Positions 4,317-18,170 of a DNA stretch of 64,000 nt are shown here, piece after piece (within the stretch, counting starts at the first letter, position 1; each line of letters begins with the position of its first letter). A model generated the notes under the pieces. That model was not told where the DNA came from and searched no databases. It saw only the letters and a program-made list of their open reading frames with translations. The position numbers and the translations under genes were made by a program. The stretch is from Bacillota bacterium (GTDB lineage Bacteria; Bacillota; SHA-98; Ch115): assembly GCA_013178415.1 (NCBI GenBank), contig JABLXA010000009.1, forward strand, positions 1 through 64,000, in the 5' to 3' direction.

Positions 4317-5595
4317 CAACTCTCTCCTTTCCTTGTTCCTTTGATTCATCTGCCCCCGATTCTTGCGGTTCCACGATGAAATCAGATTCTGTAATAGAGA
4401 ACCTCCGTGGGCTCCCTATATCTTCAATAACTTCGGCCACAATGCGGGCCGTAACAGTCCCTTTATCTGAATCTTGACTCACCAGCTCACGCTTAAATAC
4501 AGTGGTCACACCTTTAGGAATCTCCCTGTTCAATGCCTCCAGGGCTCCATGAAGCGCTTCGGCCGCTGCTTCTTCATAGCTTTTTTCCTCTTTCGTGCGC
4601 CTTACTTCAACCCAGGTCAACTTCTCGATCTCCACAGGTATCTTGAGACCACCGGGGCCAAACGAAAATCTGACGCGCTCTCGTTCCTCTTTATAATCAC
4701 GGAAATCGGCTGGGGGACGGCCCAATACTATCGGGCGTCCGAAAAACAGCGCAACAGCTCCACCTGACCTCCTCCCTGTGGGAATGAGACTCTCCCATCG
4801 CAGTTTTACAGTCTTTGTGCCTTCATACCAAACCCTCGCGCGAACTATGCCGTGTCCATCAACAATCTGAATATCTTCCCCATCCTTGTGGCCAGTCGCT
4901 AGCCGCCTCATGGCACAACCCTTGATAAGCACATCGCCCCGTTTCACGGTATCCCCGGGCCGGACCACCGGGATGCCAGCCAGTGTGATCATAGTCTCAA
5001 TAAGGCCGTCACGTCTTGCAACAACGTGCGTAAGCATATTATCATGCGGTACCAGCTTTTTCTCGGCGATTTCTATAACCAGTTTAGTGCCGCTGAGATG
5101 AGCCCCGGCCCAGGCGACCTCACGAACCTGCGCAAGTATGGACTTCTCTATCCTGCGCAGGTCTATGGTTCTCTTGAGCTTCCCCGGTATTACCCCTTCT
5201 TTGGCCACAACCTGAAGGATCCTCTGTTCAGGGACTTCTTTTTCCCCTTTGACCTCAATGAACCACACAAAGGACGAAAGCACATTGAGGGCTATCCCAA
5301 AGATCACAGCCCCCATGACAAAAGCCTTGCGTGACCATAGCCGACCCAAGACAAAGGGCAGGCCGGCCTCCTTTATGATCTCAGCTTCACAACCTACCCT
5401 CTCCAAAATCGGATCCATGTCAGCCAGATCCCTTGCGTCGATCTTTGCAACGATAAATCTATCACCTATTTTTTCGATGTCCCAGAGATCTATTCCCCTG
5501 GAGCAAGCAAGGTTTATACATTTCTCCTGGGCCCTTCCTTTGATTTTGATTATAACATAGCCTTTCAGATAAGGCCACAATCTGTCGAGCAGCAT
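4300..5595 (-). CDS. yqfD: sporulation protein YqfD
   Basis: This is a 431-residue membrane-anchored protein of the YqfD family, made during sporulation in the mother cell in B. subtilis. A cytoplasmic N-terminal part of about 85 residues precedes one strong transmembrane segment (about residues 92-113). A long extracytoplasmic region with a POTRA-like start (the VKGEKEVPEQRI stretch) follows. The C-terminal 50 residues are charged and low in complexity. The start is supported by GAGGAGGGGTGAACAG directly upstream. It lies 4 nt after yqfC and overlaps the start of phoH by 17 nt. Confidence 0.9.
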   Translation of the reverse strand: MLLDRLWPYLKGYVIIKIKGRAQEKCINLACSRGIDLWDIEKIGDRFIVAKIDARDLADMDPILERVGCEAEIIKEAGLPFVLGRLWSRKAFVMGAVIFGIALNVLSSFVWFIEVKGEKEVPEQRILQVVAKEGVIPGKLKRTIDLRRIEKSILAQVREVAWAGAHLSGTKLVIEIAEKKLVPHDNMLTHVVARRDGLIETMITLAGIPVVRPGDTVKRGDVLIKGCAMRRLATGHKDGEDIQIVDGHGIVRARVWYEGTKTVKLRWESLIPTGRRSGGAVALFFGRPIVLGRPPADFRDYKEERERVRFSFGPGGLKIPVEIEKLTWVEVRRTKEEKSYEEAAAEALHGALEALNREIPKGVTTVFKRELVSQDSDKGTVTARIVAEVIEDIGSPRRFSITESDFIVEPQESGADESKEQGKERVDGETL

Positions 5596-5599
5596 CTGT

Positions 5600-5932
5600 T
5601 CACCCCTCCTCTTGCCGGGGCCGGTCCGACATCCTGTGGCCTGAAATCATGTTGAAGGCGAGTGCTGAGATCTCGCCCTCAATTATCAGTTCATCTGCGG
5701 AGATCTTTCTCAGGGCAAGTCCGTGGCCGTCAACCCGAAGTTCACCAGTGGGCAGGCCCAGCCTCAATGTATCCTCGGTATACTCTATAAGGCCTCGATG
5801 ATTCTCAACGCGCAATTCTAAATTGCCGAAAAGTACAAGCCTGGGAAGATCAAGAACAATATCATGAGGGATATCTAGCGCCTCTGCGAAGCTCCTGCCA
5901 AGGCCGAATTTCTTGCGAGCTAGCCAGGTCAA
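5600..5932 (-). CDS. yqfC: sporulation protein YqfC
   Basis: This 110-residue protein belongs to the small YqfC/YabP-like family found next to yqfD in spore formers. It has the family's beta-rich core ending in a run of hydrophobic strands (LRKISADELIIEGEI). The first 20 residues are basic and the C-terminus is polar. The start appears to be TTG at 5932, about 11 nt after GGGAGG. Its position directly before yqfD supports the call. Confidence 0.85.
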   Translation of the reverse strand: MTWLARKKFGLGRSFAEALDIPHDIVLDLPRLVLFGNLELRVENHRGLIEYTEDTLRLGLPTGELRVDGHGLALRKISADELIIEGEISALAFNMISGHRMSDRPRQEEG

Positions 5933-6024
5933 GGCATATCCTACCTCCCATCGGACGACAAACCGTCCCCTTAAGAGACGCCAAATTGTCTCCTAAAAAA
6001 GGTATGCCTCTTCCCTCTTTATGA

Positions 6025-6597
6025 TTACCGGACTCCAAAAGCTTGTCTTCCTGAGCCCATAGGAGCTGCCCTCTTCGATCTTGGAGGAGAAAGGATCTCT
6101 CCTAATATAACTGCCGACGGAATCCCAGCAGGGCCCAGGAGGTCTACGATTCCCGGTGGGATAGCTTGGGGCTGCTCTGTCGCTGATACGGCATATTCTG
6201 CCCATGATCCTGCGGTCGAGGTATCATCTTTGAAGACATCAATAGTCCATTCCTCATCGATGGCGAGCTCAGAAGATACGCCCTCACCGGTCCAGGCCTC
6301 GCCTATCCCCATATCTCTTGTTGGTCTGCCGATGACGCCGTCATCGCGAATAAAACCACCACTTTCTGCACTTACAGCGCCTTCTCCTGCATCGGCAAGA
6401 CCTTCTTCCGCTTCTGCAAGACTGGCGCCACTGTCCGCAGAAATACTGCCTCCATTGCCTTCATTGGGGTGCATGGAGGTCTCTAAAGGTTCTGCCTCAG
6501 CAAGTCTCTTGAGCATCCCCCTGATCACAGGGAGGATTATAGCCACCGCGAGGTAAACAATGGCTATGAGGCTGATAAGGCCTTCAATGTTGACCAT
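6025..6597 (-). CDS. conserved hypothetical membrane-anchored protein between floA and yqfC
   Basis: The protein is 190 residues. One N-terminal transmembrane helix (about residues 5-27) is followed by an acidic, low-complexity linker rich in Gly, Ala, Glu and Ser (about 35-125). A short C-terminal hydrophobic/basic tail (IPSAVILGEILSPPRSKRA) could be a conserved docking motif. It occupies the place of yqfB in B. subtilis but does not resemble YqfB to me. The location right after nfeD-floA suggests a role at the membrane with flotillin or in the yqf sporulation unit. This is inference only. Confidence 0.7.
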   Translation of the reverse strand: MVNIEGLISLIAIVYLAVAIILPVIRGMLKRLAEAEPLETSMHPNEGNGGSISADSGASLAEAEEGLADAGEGAVSAESGGFIRDDGVIGRPTRDMGIGEAWTGEGVSSELAIDEEWTIDVFKDDTSTAGSWAEYAVSATEQPQAIPPGIVDLLGPAGIPSAVILGEILSPPRSKRAAPMGSGRQAFGVR

Positions 6598-9350: not shown

Positions 9351-9380
9351 ATTATACCCCAGCGGAAATCCGGGTGTCAA
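9351..9380 (-). promoter_or_regulatory. sigma-A promoter of rpsU
   Basis: On the minus strand TTGACA (9375-9380) and TATAAT (9351-9356) are separated by 18 nt. Both hexamers match the consensus. The TGA inside the -35 box is the stop codon of mtaB, so the promoter starts exactly where that gene ends. Confidence 0.85.
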
Positions 9381-10738
9381 TTGATAGCCGAGGACGCGTC
9401 AGATTTTGCGATACGACCTGTTACATACTCACTTGACGCTCGTATGACCTCCACAGGCAGGAAATCGCGAATCTCTTCGCCCCCACGTGGCACATAAACC
9501 CTCACATAGGTATCGGTGAGACCCTGTAATAATTGTCCCGGGCCTTCTTCCTCTATTAATATGCCATATTGCTTGCCTATCATGCTTTTATGAAACTTCA
9601 GGGAGAGTTCCCGGCCCAATTCCCGCGCTCGCTCGCTGCGTCTTTCAGCGACGGCGGCGTCCACCTGTCCTTGGAAAGTCGCTGCCCTGGTCCCCGGCCT
9701 TTTCGAGTACCTGAATACATGAAGGCGGCTGAATTCCATTTGCCTGACAAACTGGAGACTTCTTTCGAACCTCTCCTCGGTCTCCTGAGGGAAACCTACC
9801 ATGAGATCCGTGGTAATTGCGCATTCTGGTATATTCGCGCGTATTCGTTCTACAAGCGAAGCATAATCCTCGGGCGAATAAGGTCGCCCCATGAGTTTCA
9901 GGATTTCAGCATCACCACTTTGAAGAGGTATGTGAAGGTGGCGCGCAGCCTTAGGAGAGGAAGCCAGAACCTCTATAAGAGTCTGGTCAAGATCCATTGG
10001 CTCGATAGAACTGAGCCTGAGCCGCCATTCTCCCGGGAGCGCCAGTAATCTCTCGACAATGGCGGCAAGATCGATTTTTTTTCCGTCCCCGGAGTTTTCA
10101 TCGGCAGTACCAAGGTCCACCCCATAGAGCCCAAGATGAATTCCGACTAGCACTATCTCCTTGTAACCAACCCCTAGCAGCCTTTCAACCTCCGCAATCA
10201 CATCGCCCGGTCTCCGACTCCTGAGAGGGCCTCTCGCGAAGGGTACCCGGCAATATGCGCAGAACTGATTGCAGCCCTCCTGGATCTTCACATATACCCT
10301 GGTGCGCCTAGCCACCATATCGATAGGAGTCTCTTCAAATGCCCTTTGATCCCCCACAGGCTCCACTGCCACCAGCGGGCCGCCCTCCTCGCGGACCTTT
10401 TCAACAAGATCTGGTATCATAGATCTACCGCGAGTGCCCACAATCACATCGACACCCGGGATCTCCGAAATCTCCTCCGGCGCGACCTGAGCATAACAGC
10501 CGGTAACCACTACTACGGCATCGGGGTTACGCTTTCGCGCCCGCCGCACCAATTGCCGCGATTTATGATCGCTGGTGACGGTAACGGTGCATGTATTTAT
10601 ACAATATACGTCCGCCCTTGAGTCAAAATCTACTATTTTATACCCACGCTTTCGAAACGCGGCCATCAGTGCCTCGGTATCATATTGATTCACCTTACAT
10701 CCGAGAGTGGCAAAAGCGCAGGTTCTTGTTTCCTCCAT
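9377..10738 (-). CDS. mtaB: tRNA N6-threonylcarbamoyladenosine methylthiotransferase MtaB
   Basis: This is a 453-residue radical SAM methylthiotransferase that converts t6A37 to ms2t6A37 in tRNAs reading ANN codons. An N-terminal UPF0004 domain carries cysteines in LGCKVNQYDTEA, NTCTVT and TGCYAQ. The radical SAM motif CNQFCAYC lies near residue 155-162, and a C-terminal TRAM domain starts at about 385. Lengths and motifs fit MtaB (YqeV) rather than MiaB or RimO, as does its place after rsmE. Confidence 0.95.
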   Translation of the reverse strand: MEETRTCAFATLGCKVNQYDTEALMAAFRKRGYKIVDFDSRADVYCINTCTVTVTSDHKSRQLVRRARKRNPDAVVVVTGCYAQVAPEEISEIPGVDVIVGTRGRSMIPDLVEKVREEGGPLVAVEPVGDQRAFEETPIDMVARRTRVYVKIQEGCNQFCAYCRVPFARGPLRSRRPGDVIAEVERLLGVGYKEIVLVGIHLGLYGVDLGTADENSGDGKKIDLAAIVERLLALPGEWRLRLSSIEPMDLDQTLIEVLASSPKAARHLHIPLQSGDAEILKLMGRPYSPEDYASLVERIRANIPECAITTDLMVGFPQETEERFERSLQFVRQMEFSRLHVFRYSKRPGTRAATFQGQVDAAVAERRSERARELGRELSLKFHKSMIGKQYGILIEEEGPGQLLQGLTDTYVRVYVPRGGEEIRDFLPVEVIRASSEYVTGRIAKSDASSAIN

Positions 10739-10747
10739 TCGCGAAGA

Positions 10748-11533
10748 TCACCCACCAAGTTGGCCGAATTCATAAAGAACAGCTGCAATCACGGAGATGG
10801 CCGCTGTTTCGGTTCTCAGGATCCTCGGGCCCAGGCTTACGGAGATCCCTCCCGCATCCCTTATCATCAGCACCTCATCTCTTGTAAGTCCGCCTTCAGG
10901 GCCGATAAAACATACAACTGTACCAGGCACTTCAGGGGTCGTATGATCCCCTGTACACTCAAGCAATCTGAGCCCTTGTCTCAATCCCGCATTTTCCTCA
11001 AGCTCCCAGGGTACTATCCATATACAATCCGCGGCGGCGGGCGGTATATGTTTCCCGCGAATAGCCTCACTCAAATTGCATATATCATGTACAGCAGGAA
11101 TCGTGGCTCTGCCTGATTGTTTGGAGGCCTCAACAGCTATTCTGCTGAGACGGGCGACCTTTTTGGATGCGGCCTCCACATCCGGCCTTGCCACGGTTCT
11201 CTCTGTAATTACCGGATGAAAATGGGACACGCCCAACTCCGTTCCAGCCCGGACAATGATGTCCATCTTATCACTCTTTGGAAGGCCCTGAACAAGTATT
11301 ACATTGACACTGGGATCGCTTGTCCTTCTGCTGGCCGAAATGATGGCACAATAGACTTCATCCTGTGAAATCCGGGCAATCCGGGAAACATACTGGTTAC
11401 CATATCCATCGAGAATCAAGATCTCGTCGCCAGGACCAAGTCTCAACACATCTCTTAGATGCCTGACATCACCGCCAGTGATGACAGCGGTATCGCCAGA
11501 TATGGAATCCCTCGGGACGAAAAAACGCCTCAC
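10748..11533 (-). CDS. rsmE: 16S rRNA m3U1498 methyltransferase RsmE
   Basis: This 261-residue SPOUT-family enzyme methylates U1498 in the decoding region of 16S rRNA. The N-terminal PUA-like domain starts [10 protein letters not shown]. The SAM-binding knot includes [13 protein letters not shown] (about 205-217) and [13 protein letters not shown] (about 231-243), both classical. The GTG start overlaps the dnaJ stop by 4 nt (GTGA). prmA, which usually sits between dnaJ and rsmE, is missing here. Confidence 0.95.
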
Positions 11534-12687
11534 TGTGCTCTTCGCTCCCAGGCGTCCCTCATTTTATGAAAGAAGCCCTTGCTCTGGGCATCCTTCCCAT
11601 GAAGCGCAGCCAGTTCACGTAAAAGCTCCTTCTCCCTCGGGCTCAACTTCGTTGGTGTAACTACCATCACCTTTACAAATTGATCTCCCCGTCCAAATCC
11701 ACGTAAACTTGGGATGCCCTTCCCTTTCAACCGGAACGAAGATCCAGATTGGGTGCCCTCAGGAATCTTGAGCTTGGCAGTTCCATCCAGGGTCGGAACT
11801 TCGATCTCATCACCCAGGCAGGCCTGCCAATAATGGATTGGAACTTCACATATCACATCATTGCCTGACCTTTGGAAGATCTCGTGAGGAGCCACAGTAA
11901 TATATACATACAGATCTCCGCGCGGCCCGCCCCTGATTCCGGCGTCTCCTGCTCCTGCAATCCTCACCTTGATGCCGGAATCAACGCCGGCTGGAACCTT
12001 CACCTTGATCTTATGGCGTTTCTGAATCCTTCCGCGTCCCTTGCAGACGCCACAAGGGCTTGTGATGATCTTTCCTTCCCCACCACAACGAGGACAGGTG
12101 CGGAGGCTTGTGAAACTGCCAAATGGGATAGACCTGGTCTCGCCTACCTGGCCCCGACCATTACATATCGGGCAAGTCGATGGCTCTGTTCCCGGTGCGG
12201 CCCCGGTGCCGCCGCAATTGCCACACCCATCGAGCCGATCCACCTCTATCGTCTTCTCCACACCGATTGCAGCTTCTTCCAGTGTTATCTCAAGGTCATA
12301 TTGCAGGTCATTTCCGGGCTGGGGCCCCCGCCTTGCCGATGCGCCCCCGCGGATATCCCCGCCGAAGAACATATCAAAGATGCTGCCGACCCCAAACGGA
12401 TCAAAATCCCTGAAATCCCGGAATTCACCTTGGCCAAAATCAAAGCCTCCGCCCGCGCCAGCCTGATTGAAAGCATGACCAAATTGATCATACTTGGCCC
12501 GCTTCTCAGGATCACTTAGGACTTCGTAGGCTTCATTGATCTCTTTGAACTTCTCTTCAGCCTCTTTATTATTCGGGTTCAGATCAGGGTGATACTGTCT
12601 TGCAAGCTTGCGATAAGCCTTTTTTATCTCATCCTGGCTTGCATTCCTATCCACCCCGAGCACTTCGTAGTAATCCCTGCTGGCCAA
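11530..12687 (-). CDS. dnaJ: chaperone protein DnaJ (Hsp40)
   Basis: This type I DnaJ stimulates DnaK ATPase. The order is J-domain with HPD (YHPDLNP, about residues 34-40), Gly/Phe-rich region (about 75-125), four CxxCxGxG zinc repeats ([32 protein letters not shown]) and a C-terminal substrate domain. I placed the start at TTG 12687, giving [12 protein letters not shown], the usual N-terminus. A GTG three codons upstream is the alternative. It lies last in the hrcA-chaperonin-grpE-dnaK-dnaJ operon. Confidence 0.96.
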
Positions 12688-12711
12688 AGAGTCCACCGCC
12701 TATCTTCAATA

Positions 12712-12759: not shown

Positions 12760-14622
12760 TTACGACCGCTTATCATCATTGACTTCGCGGTAATCTCCAT
12801 CCACCACATCATCACGAGAGCCGCTTGCAGAGCGTTTCTCCTGATCCTGCGCCCCGTGGCCTCCGGTCCCGGCGCCGGGCCCGCCTGCCGCCTGCCCATA
12901 TATGGCTGAGGTAGCCTCGTGTAGAGCCTTGGTGAGTTCCTCCATTCTCTGGCGAATCCTGGCGGCATTCTTCTCTTGTAGAGCCGTCTTTAAATCGGCT
13001 TCAGCTTTCTGTATCCTGTCACGCCGATCCTGAGGAATCTTATCGCCCAGATCCTTGAGTGTCTTATCAACGCTATAGATCAGGCTATCTGCCGAATTTA
13101 TGAGCTCCGCCTCCTCACGGCGCTTCTTGTCCTCCTCTGCATGCATTTCCGCTTCTTTGACCATACGCTCGATGTCCTCTTTAGATACCCCCGACGGAGA
13201 GCTTATTGTTATCTTTTGCTCTTTCCCGGTTCCGAGGTCCTTGGCCGATACATTGACAATGCCATTGGCGTCGATATCGAACGCCACCTCGATTTGAGGG
13301 ACTCCCCTGGGAGCGGGCGGTATCCCGGTCAACTGGAACCTGCCGAGCGTGACATTATCTGCGGCCATCGGGCGCTCACCCTGGAGGACATGAATCTCCA
13401 CAGATGTCTGGTTATCGGCAGCAGTAGAAAAGATCTGTTTCTTGGTAACAGGGATCGTTGTATTCCGGTCGATGATCTTCGTGAATACTCCGCCCAGGGT
13501 CTCGATCCCAAGGGATAGGGGAGTTACGTCTAGCAGCAAGAGATCCCGCACCTCGCCTGTCAGGACACCTGCCTGGATTGCAGCGCCAATGGCCACGCAT
13601 TCATCAGGATTGACCCCCTTGTGCGGCTCCTTGCCCATAAGTCGCTTTATGGCCTCCTGGACTGCAGGAATACGAGTCGAGCCTCCCACAAGTATGACTT
13701 TGTCAATATCCTTGGGCTCGAGGCCTGCATCGGCCAGGGCCTGCTTTGTCGGACCCATGGTCTTCTCCACTAGATCACGAGTAAGCTCCTCGAATTTCGC
13801 TCGCGTAAGGGTCTCATCTAGATGCAGTGGCTGACCCGAGGAGTCCACAGAGATAAATGGCAAGTTAATCGTAGTGGTAAACAGCGTAGACAATTCTATT
13901 TTTGCCTTTTCAGCCGCTTCCGTGAGCCTTTGCATGGCGACCCTGTCTCGCTTCAAATCAACCCCTGTACGCTTGTAGAATTCCTGACACAGGTATTCCG
14001 TTATCTTCCTGTCGAAATCGTCTCCTCCCAAAAGATTATTCCCGTTTGTAGCCTTAACATGAAAAACTCCATCGCCAATCTCCAGAATGGAAACATCGAA
14101 GGTGCCTCCGCCAAGATCGAAAACCAGGATGGTGTGGTCGCCAGATTTATCAAGCCCATAGGCAAGAGATGCCGCGGTAGGCTCATTGATTATTCTCAAG
14201 ACCTCCAACCCTGCGATCCTGCCGGCATCTTTGGTGGCCTGCCTCTGGCTATCTGTGAAGTAGGCAGGGCATGTAATCACAGCCTTTTCGATTTTTTCTC
14301 CTAGAAAAGCCTCGGCGTCTTCCTTGAGCTTCCTGAGGATCATCGCCGAGATCTCCTGGGGGGTGTACTCCTTGTCATCGATTTTGACACGGTAATCTGT
14401 TCCCATCCTTCTCTTTATGGAGATCACCGTACGCTCTGGATTGGTAATAGCCTGCCTCTTGGCAAGCTGCCCCACCATTCTTTCACCCGTCTTTGTAAAA
14501 GCCACTACCGACGGGGTGAGTCGGCTACCCTCAGCATTAGGTATGACGCGGGGTTCCCCGCCTTCCATCACGGCAATAACAGAGTTTGTGGTACCAAGGT
14601 CAATGCCAACCACTTTCCCCAT
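12760..14622 (-). CDS. dnaK: chaperone protein DnaK (Hsp70)
   Basis: This 620-residue Hsp70 starts [14 protein letters not shown]. It has the ATPase domain with phosphate loops ([12 protein letters not shown], about 170-181), the [15 protein letters not shown] linker region and a substrate-binding domain with a helical lid. The C-terminus is Gly-rich and then charged rather than ending in EEVD, as normal for bacteria. It is transcribed from the CIRCE-controlled promoter upstream of hrcA. Confidence 0.98.
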
Positions 14623-14687: not shown

Positions 14688-15365
14688 TTACTGAGGTCTA
14701 TCCTGACTCTCACTGGGTGCGTCGGCCTCATTCTCATTAGCCGCCTTTCCACCCGTATTTTCTTCAGACTTCTTGGATACGATGACCAGGGACGGCCTCA
14801 GAACCCTATCACCGTACATGTACCCTTTGCGAACTTCCCGGACGACAGTTCCTTCCTCGACCTCATTATCGATAACCTGCTGCAATGCCTCATGAACCTT
14901 TGGATCATAGGGTTTCCCCAGGGCTTCGATCGGGGTCATGCCTTCCCTTTCGAGAAACTGGGCCACCTGTTTCTTTATGATCCCGATCCCTTGAAAAACC
15001 GGATCATCGCTTTTATCTTCCTTAACGAAGGCAAAGGCGGCATCGAGGTTGTCCAAAAGGGGCAAAAAGCTCCTCAAAACACTATCAGTAACGCCTCTCT
15101 CAAACTCTTTCCGTTCCTGCGCAATCCTCTTCTTATAGTTCTCAAAATCAGCTTGTGTGCGCTGCCAGCCGGCCAGATAATATTCCTTTTGTTTTGTTTC
15201 CTCTGCAAGCCGCGCCTCAAGGGAAGCAATCCGTGCCTCAATCGAATCAACCTTACTGGCAGGGACCTCTTTCGTCTCGCACTCGCCGGCCGCTTCCCCT
15301 CCTTCGCCACCATTCAACTCTTTATCCGGTTCACCCGATGACACGGTCCTTTCTTGATCCTCCAC
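14688..15365 (-). CDS. grpE: nucleotide exchange factor GrpE
   Basis: This 225-residue co-chaperone exchanges ADP on DnaK. An acidic disordered N-terminus (to about 45) precedes a long coiled coil (about 45-95), and the signature region includes FLPLLDNLDAAF. The beta-wing ends with GYMYGDRVLRPSLVIVS. It starts with GTG after GGAGGGTGGCCTT. It lies between the chaperonin gene (17 nt upstream) and dnaK. Confidence 0.97.
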   Translation of the reverse strand: MEDQERTVSSGEPDKELNGGEGGEAAGECETKEVPASKVDSIEARIASLEARLAEETKQKEYYLAGWQRTQADFENYKKRIAQERKEFERGVTDSVLRSFLPLLDNLDAAFAFVKEDKSDDPVFQGIGIIKKQVAQFLEREGMTPIEALGKPYDPKVHEALQQVIDNEVEEGTVVREVRKGYMYGDRVLRPSLVIVSKKSEENTGGKAANENEADAPSESQDRPQ

Positions 15366-15381: not shown

Positions 15382-16926
15382 CTACTGAGATTGTTGTTCC
15401 TCTCTTTTCCTGATGATCTTGTCTATACGTAAAATGGCTTCGGCAACCTCGCCCGCTGCCTTGAGCGCATAGCATTTCACCAAGGTGGGGTCGAATATGC
15501 CGAGTTCGGCCATATCAACTATTTCCCCTGTATCACAATCAACCCCTATAGAATCTTTGCCAAGTCTTTCCTGGGAAGATACCGCCTGCTCCACCTTTTC
15601 TAGGGCATTAAAGCCGGCATTTGTCACTATTTGGGAGAGAGGGCGCTTTAAAGCATCAATCACGCAATCCAGACCATAGCCAACCATGCCGCACACAGTA
15701 TGCCTCAGTTTTTGAAGGGCCCGGGCCGCAGCAATCTCTATAGATCCTCCCCCTGGCACAATGCCATGTATTAGAGCAGCCTGCACAGAAGATGCAGCAT
15801 CTTGGGCAATACGTTCCCGTTCTCCGACTACCTCATCGGTCGCCGCGCCCACCAAAATGGTAGCCATAGGCTGGCCTGCTCCTCCAAGTATCTTGATATA
15901 GGAGAATCTTTCATCCTCTGATACGCTCTCGGCGTGCCCGAGATAGCTCCGGATCTCCTCCTTGGATCTTGAGAGAGACCTGCGCTTTATAGGCCGGGCA
16001 CCTGTATGCTCCGCAAGAGCTCGCATCTCCCGGGATGATACCCGTTCTATGGCCATGATCCCGGCATCGACCAGCGCCTCCTCTGCGACCTCCGAGATCC
16101 CCCGGCATGTCACGACCAATCCGATGTCCAGATCAATTATCTTCTGCAGGTTTTCTTTGAAACTTTCCTGTAGCTGTAGATATCTTCTGAATCCAGCTTC
16201 GGTGGAAAGGGCCTCGCTCTCAATTGGCTCCGGCTCCATGGCATCATCCAGGATCAGGATCCAGACATCCTTTTTGCTCCTGGGCATAGCCTTGTTCATG
16301 CGGCCCTTATCGATCACGACCCCCAGGAAGGCCTCGCTTGCGGCTCCCTCCTGGGCCATTATTATATCCCGAAGCCTGAAGGCCGGATCCCTCAGTTTTT
16401 CCTCTCCCACGAGACGCGCTGCCTGCAGCGCAAGGTCAGCCAGGTCCTGGCATCCTCTAGCCGATGTGAGTGCCACCTGTCGTAGCACATGGTCATCAAG
16501 CCCGCGGACTTGCCTGGAGCTCCTCTTTATCATCTCGATTGCAGAATCAACCCCCTGGCGTATTCCCTCGATGACGCGGGCTACCGGAACCCCTCTCGAG
16601 ATCTGTTCGACTCCGTTGGAGATCAGAGCTCCAGCCAAAATACTAGCAGTGGTGGTGCCGTCCCCGACCTCGTCCTGCTGGGCCTCAGCCACATTTATAA
16701 GCATTCGCGCGGCAGGATGATTGGCCTCCATCCGGCTCAGTATGGTACAGCCATCATTTGTGATCACAACGTCTCCGAACTTATCCACCAGCATCGTATC
16801 AAGCCCTTTGGGCCCGATGGTCCCTTCGACACTAGCTACTACAGCTCTTACAGCGGCAGAGTTCGTAATGAGTGCCGCCATGCGGTCATCGACTTGTGAT
16901 TCTTCTCTAGGTTCCTTTGAGGCCAT
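15382..16926 (-). CDS. group III (archaeal-like, thermosome/CCT-type) chaperonin
   Basis: This 514-residue chaperonin clearly belongs to the TCP-1/thermosome branch and not to GroEL. Visible family motifs are VEGTIGPKGLDTMLVD and the VTNDGCTIL-type nucleotide loop (VVITNDGCTILSRM), GDGTTTASILAGAL with catalytic Asp, and GIVPGGGSIEIAAARAL in the lower equatorial domain. Such group III chaperonins are known from a few Bacillota, where they also lie in the dnaK operon. No co-chaperonin gene is adjacent, as expected for a lid-containing type. The ATG follows GGAGGATGAGAC. Confidence 0.93.
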   Translation of the reverse strand: MASKEPREESQVDDRMAALITNSAAVRAVVASVEGTIGPKGLDTMLVDKFGDVVITNDGCTILSRMEANHPAARMLINVAEAQQDEVGDGTTTASILAGALISNGVEQISRGVPVARVIEGIRQGVDSAIEMIKRSSRQVRGLDDHVLRQVALTSARGCQDLADLALQAARLVGEEKLRDPAFRLRDIIMAQEGAASEAFLGVVIDKGRMNKAMPRSKKDVWILILDDAMEPEPIESEALSTEAGFRRYLQLQESFKENLQKIIDLDIGLVVTCRGISEVAEEALVDAGIMAIERVSSREMRALAEHTGARPIKRRSLSRSKEEIRSYLGHAESVSEDERFSYIKILGGAGQPMATILVGAATDEVVGERERIAQDAASSVQAALIHGIVPGGGSIEIAAARALQKLRHTVCGMVGYGLDCVIDALKRPLSQIVTNAGFNALEKVEQAVSSQERLGKDSIGVDCDTGEIVDMAELGIFDPTLVKCYALKAAGEVAEAILRIDKIIRKREEQQSQ

Positions 16927-17015: not shown

Positions 17016-18086
17016 TCACCGGCGTGACTTTGCCAGCGCGCCACTCAGACTATCAGCTACGAATCCTACAAGGTTCACGATCCTGGAGTAATCCATTCTG
17101 GTTGGTCCGAGAATTCCAATGATGCCGGCCATATGGCCCCCTACTTCATAGGAAGCACTCACGATGGAGCATTCATGAAGCTCTTCTATAGCATTCTCAT
17201 GTCCGATCAGGATCTCAACCCCACCAGACGGGTTGATTCCCGTTAATATGTCGAACATGAGATCATCTTCCTCAAGGATGCTAAGCAATCCCTTTACCTT
17301 GGATATATCCTGAAATTCTGGCTGCGCCAGCATATTTACAGTGCCTTCCCGGAAGACTCGCTCTGTTCCCTTGTCATCAAGGGCCTTGAGCAAGAGCTCG
17401 ATGGCCTCCTGCGCCAGGTATTTATATCTTCTCAGTTCCCATTCGATCTCGTTAAGTAAAGTGGACCTCAAATCCTTTACAGCCTTACCATTGAGCCGTT
17501 CATTGAGATAATGAGTTATGCCGACGATCTCCTGGGGAGAGATGGTTCCAGACAGCTGAACTATCCGCGTATTCACAAATCCCGGCTCCGTTATCATGAT
17601 CACCAGGAGGCTATCTTCAGACATGGGAATGAGATCTATGCGCCTTATGACGCTCTCTCCGAATCTCGGCGAGATGACCACCACAGCCTGATTGGTGAGA
17701 CTCGCCAGAATCCTTGCAGTATGCTGGACAGTGGCCTCAATCTGCCCCTGTCTATGAGCGAGCTCCTGCAAGACTTTTCGTCTCTCGTCAGGTGAGAGCG
17801 GTTTTGCCTCCATTATGACGTCCACATAAAACCTGTAACCCGTGTCAGAAGGGATACGTCCACTGGAGGTGTGGACCTGGCAAAGATAGCCCTCTTCCTC
17901 CAGATCGGCCATCTCATTCCTTATGGTGGCTGGACTTATACCAAGATTGTACTTCCTGGCAATACTCCTCGAGCCCACAGGATCGGCTGTTGATATATAA
18001 TCGTCGACAACCGCCTGAAGTATGAGCTTTTTCCTCTCATTCATTTGACGAACAGGCTTTGCTCGACCCAAATCACTGCGTCCCAA
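17016..18086 (-). CDS. hrcA: heat-inducible transcription repressor HrcA
   Basis: This 356-residue repressor has an N-terminal winged helix (residues about 15-85, with GSRSIARKYNLGISPATIRNEMADLEE) and a C-terminal GAF-like/IDD region ending in GPTRMDYSRIVNLV. It binds CIRCE and its folding depends on chaperonin activity in known systems. Here the linked chaperonin is group III rather than GroEL. The start TTG follows GGGGTGAGAG, and the CIRCE lies 17 nt upstream of the gene. Confidence 0.97.
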   Translation of the reverse strand: MGRSDLGRAKPVRQMNERKKLILQAVVDDYISTADPVGSRSIARKYNLGISPATIRNEMADLEEEGYLCQVHTSSGRIPSDTGYRFYVDVIMEAKPLSPDERRKVLQELAHRQGQIEATVQHTARILASLTNQAVVVISPRFGESVIRRIDLIPMSEDSLLVIMITEPGFVNTRIVQLSGTISPQEIVGITHYLNERLNGKAVKDLRSTLLNEIEWELRRYKYLAQEAIELLLKALDDKGTERVFREGTVNMLAQPEFQDISKVKGLLSILEEDDLMFDILTGINPSGGVEILIGHENAIEELHECSIVSASYEVGGHMAGIIGILGPTRMDYSRIVNLVGFVADSLSGALAKSRR

Positions 18087-18141: not shown

Positions 18142-18170
18142 AACATAGCACCCTCCCTATATATTGTCAA
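18142..18170 (-). promoter_or_regulatory. sigma-A promoter of the hrcA heat-shock operon
   Basis: On the minus strand TTGACA (18165-18170) and TATGTT (18142-18147) are separated by 17 nt. The CIRCE starts 12 nt downstream of the -10 box, covering the transcription start. The TGA in the -35 box is the hemW stop codon. Confidence 0.88.

Follow-up and report, generated by a model that had tools for sequence, protein, structure and literature searches.

A Group III chaperonin gene of a known and common kind in the predicted HrcA-controlled heat-shock operon of a Bacillota bacterium

Group III chaperonin genes have been reported to sit in the dnaK operon, with one exception, according to the accessible portions of the study of Ch-CPN from Carboxydothermus hydrogenoformans, which also describes the Group III traits in the sensing loop and the inter-ring residues (PMC5635000). 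Both the arrangement and its control by HrcA have already been published, as far as the accessible sections of three articles show (PMC5635000, PMC5220055, PMC5904260), and the last of these states, citing Techtmann and Robb 2010, that both chaperonin types of Firmicutes are regulated by HrcA. In Bacillus subtilis, HrcA reacts to proteotoxic stress via feedback involving GroEL-GroES (PMC8957991, accessible part).

The window analyzed here, a stretch of 64,000 nucleotides of Bacillota DNA, contains an intact chaperonin reading frame (cpn3) that starts with ATG and has a GGAGG a few bases 5′ of this codon, as judged by eye. It lies within a run of genes (Table 1) in which hrcA and cpn3 are separated by 89 nt, cpn3 and grpE by 16 nt, grpE and dnaK by 65 nt, and dnaK and dnaJ by 63 nt. 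The dnaJ gene is named from its translation, in which the motifs are those of a J domain and zinc fingers. The RsmE-type and MtaB-type genes presumably correspond to yqeU and yqeV. The CIRCE in front of the run had no match in 100 shuffles, and the predicted promoter is located 12 nt upstream of it; we infer both this promoter and a single transcript for the hrcA-cpn3 operon. The reading frame, the profile matches, and the CIRCE scan confirm the original prediction that a thermosome-type chaperonin gene resides between hrcA and grpE, in one run of genes behind a perfect CIRCE.

Table 1. Coordinates of the genes and control sites around cpn3 in the window, and of lobe-IIB-like reading frames in related loci.
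Feature	Coordinates	Strand	Evidence
MtaB-type radical SAM methylthiotransferase	9377..10738	-	PF00919, PF04055, PF01938
RsmE-type 16S rRNA methyltransferase	10748..11533	-	PF04452, PF20260; 4-nt overlap with dnaJ
dnaJ	11530..12696	-	translation: J domain and zinc-finger repeats
dnaK, without the ~22-residue insert of the moved DnaKs compared	12760..14622	-	PF00012; alignment
grpE	14688..15365	-	PF01025, 148 bits
cpn3, Group III (thermosome-like) chaperonin, 514 aa	15382..16926	-	PF00118 (Cpn60_TCP1), 383 bits; 5x9u, 446 bits; Group III traits
hrcA, heat-inducible transcription repressor	17016..18086	-	TIGR00331, 346 bits (above cut-off); PF01628
CIRCE operator, perfect inverted repeat TTAGCACTC-N9-GAGTGCTAA	18103..18129	.	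0 mismatches
Sigma-70-type promoter match, TTGACA-17-TATGTT, TG before second hexamer	18142..18170	-	consensus scan, 10/12
Lobe-IIB-like ORF	L185:6629-6955		
Lobe-IIB-like ORF	L136:6640-6894		
Lobe-IIB-like ORF	L123:6616-6894		
Lobe-IIB-like ORF	L144:1696-1953		

Judged by its sequence, the protein encoded by cpn3 is an ordinary Group III chaperonin. Thermosome models of NCBIfam score ~310 bits, compared to 151 bits for the GroEL equivalog TIGR02348, a value far below the cut-off of 582 for that model. Among solved proteins, the closest by sequence is a reconstructed ancestor (9rwq, 615 bits), followed by Ch-CPN (5x9u), and the best archaeal thermosome chain reaches ~226 bits, with the others lower. 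The nucleotide-sensing loop is absent, with the window protein and 5x9u alike exhibiting a 6-residue gap relative to both archaeal chains, and Arg157 takes the place of Arg155 of Ch-CPN, at a position invariant in 15 alignment rows. With numbering by eye, Leu442 aligns with the inter-ring ball residue Leu439 of 5x9u, and three of the four socket residues are kept (Val113, Met414, and Tyr417), the fourth being changed from Lys109 to Arg111 in the window protein. The nucleotide motif GDGTT and the hydrolytic-type Asp in QDAASS are retained, and the lid region can be aligned with that of 5x9u. The thermosome scores, the match to 5x9u, and these traits bear out the Group III identity that was proposed for this gene of the hrcA/CIRCE operon.

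Assignment of the protein to GroEL (Group I) was rejected based on its TIGR02348 score, its 31% identity to the genome’s own GroEL (31-33% across the GroEL rows compared), and its placement in a quick tree. This tree compared Group III rows with just two from archaea and two from GroEL; 27 Group III rows fall on one side of a branch with a support of 69, which is not significant as evidence for Group III monophyly. A phylogeny placing the protein within GroEL would have refuted the original prediction; the window protein does not fall inside GroEL.

A Group III gene, whole or in pieces, was found in 128 of 398 sampled genomes of the phylum, and named carriers include Pelotomaculum, Sporomusa, Pelosinus, Heliobacterium, Desulforamulus, Thermincola, Carboxydocella, and Fervidicola. 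To describe the position of the gene, 170 loci were assembled (30 from the 398-genome search, 60 further loci, and 80 titled records), of which 148 were distinct after the removal of 22 duplicates. To be evaluable, a locus had to include, depending on the feature sought, 300 nt on the upstream side, 900 nt on the downstream side, or a stretch ahead of hrcA long enough to contain a CIRCE. By this measure, cpn3 is immediately preceded by hrcA in 145 of 146 loci and immediately followed by grpE in 137 of 146, and all 128 loci evaluable for the operator have a CIRCE (three mismatches or fewer) ahead of hrcA. Because these loci are related and were picked by similarity to the window, the counts are descriptive and do not represent independent tests. 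The original prediction held that a few Bacillota have a Group III gene at this position: the position stands, whereas “few” does not. The window gene is of a kind that has been described before and is widespread in the phylum: about one-third of the sampled genomes carry it, almost always immediately after hrcA, which corrects the impression of rarity.

Two of these loci are unusual in other respects. The sole upstream exception (L146) has the order cpn3-grpE-dnaK-dnaJ, and the 602 nt before its cpn3 (L146:1-602), which comprise a contig end and repeat-like sequence, contain no hrcA reading frame. In a one-contig genome (G015), a dinucleotide-like repeat, which reads IYIYIY in translation, divides cpn3 of locus L104 (~4700-6360) into two frames that overlap and encode 362 and 185 aa. 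Decay, a switchable frame, and a sequencing error are alternative explanations for this split.

The genome that contains the window also carries groES-groEL behind another perfect CIRCE, with GroEL on contig C7 and the operator ~0.4-0.5 kb ahead of groEL. The original prediction had called for a search for these genes, and both are present under CIRCE control. Among 80 of the 128 carriers, CIRCE sites occur in every genome and a second Cpn60 gene in 78. In the 25 of these genomes for which both positions were listed, each of the 32 GroEL copies is preceded by a CIRCE at a distance of no more than ~600 nt, as judged by eye. GroE regulation is therefore intact where it could be examined, and the Group III gene comes in addition to it.

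The two genomes with a single PF00118 match (G312 and G320) are both drafts. In G312, a contig breaks off at groES, which sits behind a CIRCE, and groEL thus probably falls in an assembly gap. In G320 (94% complete, 210 contigs; L036 and L071), the Group III chaperonin was found, but neither groES nor groEL was. We do not claim a Group III lineage that lacks GroEL, because one such draft in 80 fits incompleteness and because the sole available family mate of this genome, G274, carries a second Cpn60 gene. The second CIRCE of G320 precedes one gene with a DUF308 domain and two of the HSP20 type. Separately, a perfect CIRCE in G312 (L037:1501-1527) precedes by ~300 nt a gene whose translation contains a motif reminiscent of Cu/Zn superoxide dismutase.

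In nine distinct loci (L074, L106, L123, L136, L144, L145, L152, L171, and L185), grpE is gone from its place behind cpn3 and dnaJ, sought by tblastn with the window dnaJ as query, comes next. A long dnaK is present elsewhere in each of the nine genomes (truncated where its contig stops in G398), and grpE adjoins this moved dnaK in eight loci (L187-L194). No CIRCE was found near the moved dnaK in the available flank of L187-L194 and L198. An insert of ~22 residues is carried by all six moved DnaKs that were compared (L187-L190, L193, and L194; the comparison left out L191, L192, and L198), whereas the window DnaK lacks it. The dnaK of the grpE-less genomes looks as if it had been exchanged. 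Four of the grpE-less loci were included in the tree, where they group as a single clade and therefore may reflect one event. Beyond the window, its own genome has an open frame of 571 aa for another Hsp70-type protein, the second one (G000:C6:53976-55514).

Four of the nine grpE-less loci (L123, L136, L144, and L185) have a small ORF between cpn3 and dnaJ (Table 1). The four products, of 84-108 aa, resemble lobe IIB of DnaK alone, which is the lobe tilted by GrpE according to the accessible part of PMC8215388. All four align with the window DnaK within residues 187-280; three exceed the PF00012 cut-off, and the L144 product has no Pfam match. An AlphaFold model of the L185 protein has a mean pLDDT of 78, and its best matches are DnaK nucleotide-binding domains, with a TM score of ~0.7 by query length, so that the protein is predicted to adopt the fold of this lobe. 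Between the L136 and L123 frames, dN is 0.113 and dS is 0.406, with the reverse relationship in two shifted frames, such that the ORF looks like a maintained protein in that pair; these values come from one pair of related genomes, with dS saturating in more distant pairs.

It is a matter of guesswork what such a protein might do; it might titrate GrpE or make contact with DnaJ. A search of the phylum with the lobe-IIB alignment returned, among the matches listed, only frames of DnaK size or of at least 372 aa, and so gives no measure of how widespread the small protein is. Among literature titles, no paper on a free-standing DnaK lobe of this kind was found. This observation may be newer than the rest of those reported here, and the possible free-standing lobe-IIB protein of these relatives may deserve its own look.

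Whether the Group III chaperonin acts on HrcA can be weighed against these findings. The original prediction suggested that the linked chaperonin could assume the feedback role of GroE, and set a CIRCE-controlled groES-groEL operon in the same genome as one of the observations that would overturn this view. Such an operon is present, HrcA regulation can accordingly be explained without the linked chaperonin, and we do not uphold this part of the prediction. On this view, the Group III chaperonin, rather than GroE, would be the partner that sets HrcA activity by maturing HrcA and reporting the folding load. The hrcA-cpn3 pair is almost never broken, being steadier than the link to grpE (145 versus 137 of 146 loci) and persisting in the nine distinct loci from which grpE-dnaK left the operon, which speaks in favor of such a role. 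However, some gene must follow the first one of an operon even if the two products make no contact, and the grpE-less loci placed in the tree may represent one event in one clade. Moreover, GroE is present and CIRCE-controlled in the window’s genome, and the near-universal second Cpn60 gene and CIRCE-associated GroEL copies of the other carriers point the same way, making this proposal very unlikely. In an auxiliary role, the Group III chaperonin could serve as a second HrcA sensor beside GroE, with HrcA then reporting how heavily both chaperonins are occupied. The near-constant hrcA-cpn3 pairing, kept even in relatives whose insert-bearing dnaK lies elsewhere with no CIRCE found in the available flank, would fit such a role, which we nevertheless consider unlikely. 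Any action of the linked chaperonin on HrcA would give the heat-shock switch of these bacteria two chaperonin inputs, which the present evidence does not indicate. In the titles and abstract openings surveyed, no test of a Group III chaperonin as an HrcA partner was found.

A different question is whether an archaeal thermosome gene was recently and privately transferred into the dnaK operon of this genome. The sequence does resemble those of thermosomes, and an early archaeal transfer has been argued for Group III as a whole in the accessible part of PMC12696368. However, the nearest relatives found are bacterial, with 70% identity for a relative from the same family and 56-62% for many others, and they have the gene at the same operon position, whereas the archaeal chains compared are only 31-33% identical to the window protein. 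The composition of cpn3 also fits that of its neighbors (G+C of 0.541 versus 0.489-0.533 in seven other measured genes). A recent private transfer is thus extremely improbable.

We therefore favor the view that cpn3 encodes an ordinary Group III chaperonin and belongs to a heat-shock operon under HrcA control, which, although drawn from sequence comparisons, is very probably correct. By binding the CIRCE immediately 3′ of the promoter, HrcA would repress the operon. Upon stress, GroE would be drawn to other clients and HrcA would lose activity, by analogy with the route established in B. subtilis, and this operon would be derepressed together with the separate CIRCE-groES-groEL operon. The Group III protein would assemble into a double ring whose lid is built in, so that GroES is not needed, as demonstrated for the Carboxydothermus protein, and its ring may add folding capacity beside GroEL and DnaK-DnaJ-GrpE. 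Synteny suggests that cpn3 follows hrcA directly because a single operon has long been inherited in this part of the Bacillota.

The window thus contributes a further intact gene to an established family, whose closest described representative is Ch-CPN (PDB 5x9u/5x9v; accessible part of PMC5635000), at 44% identity and 446 bits. The two proteins have in common the missing sensing loop, the ball leucine, three of four socket residues, and a gene in the dnaK operon. In the quick tree, the Carboxydothermus protein is on a long branch, whereas the window protein, known from its sequence only, is among those of other Bacillota. With GroEL-GroES (Group I), the window chaperonin shares distant homology and ATPase motifs, but it differs in its low identity to GroEL rows and in scoring far below the GroEL cut-off. 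The known hrcA-grpE-dnaK-dnaJ operon, as described in the accessible part of PMC8957991, has the same gene order, with a CIRCE at its front and another at groESL. The window continues after dnaJ with the RsmE-type and MtaB-type genes, as the known operon does, but its dnaJ overlaps the RsmE-type gene with none in between, and it carries cpn3 inserted between hrcA and grpE.
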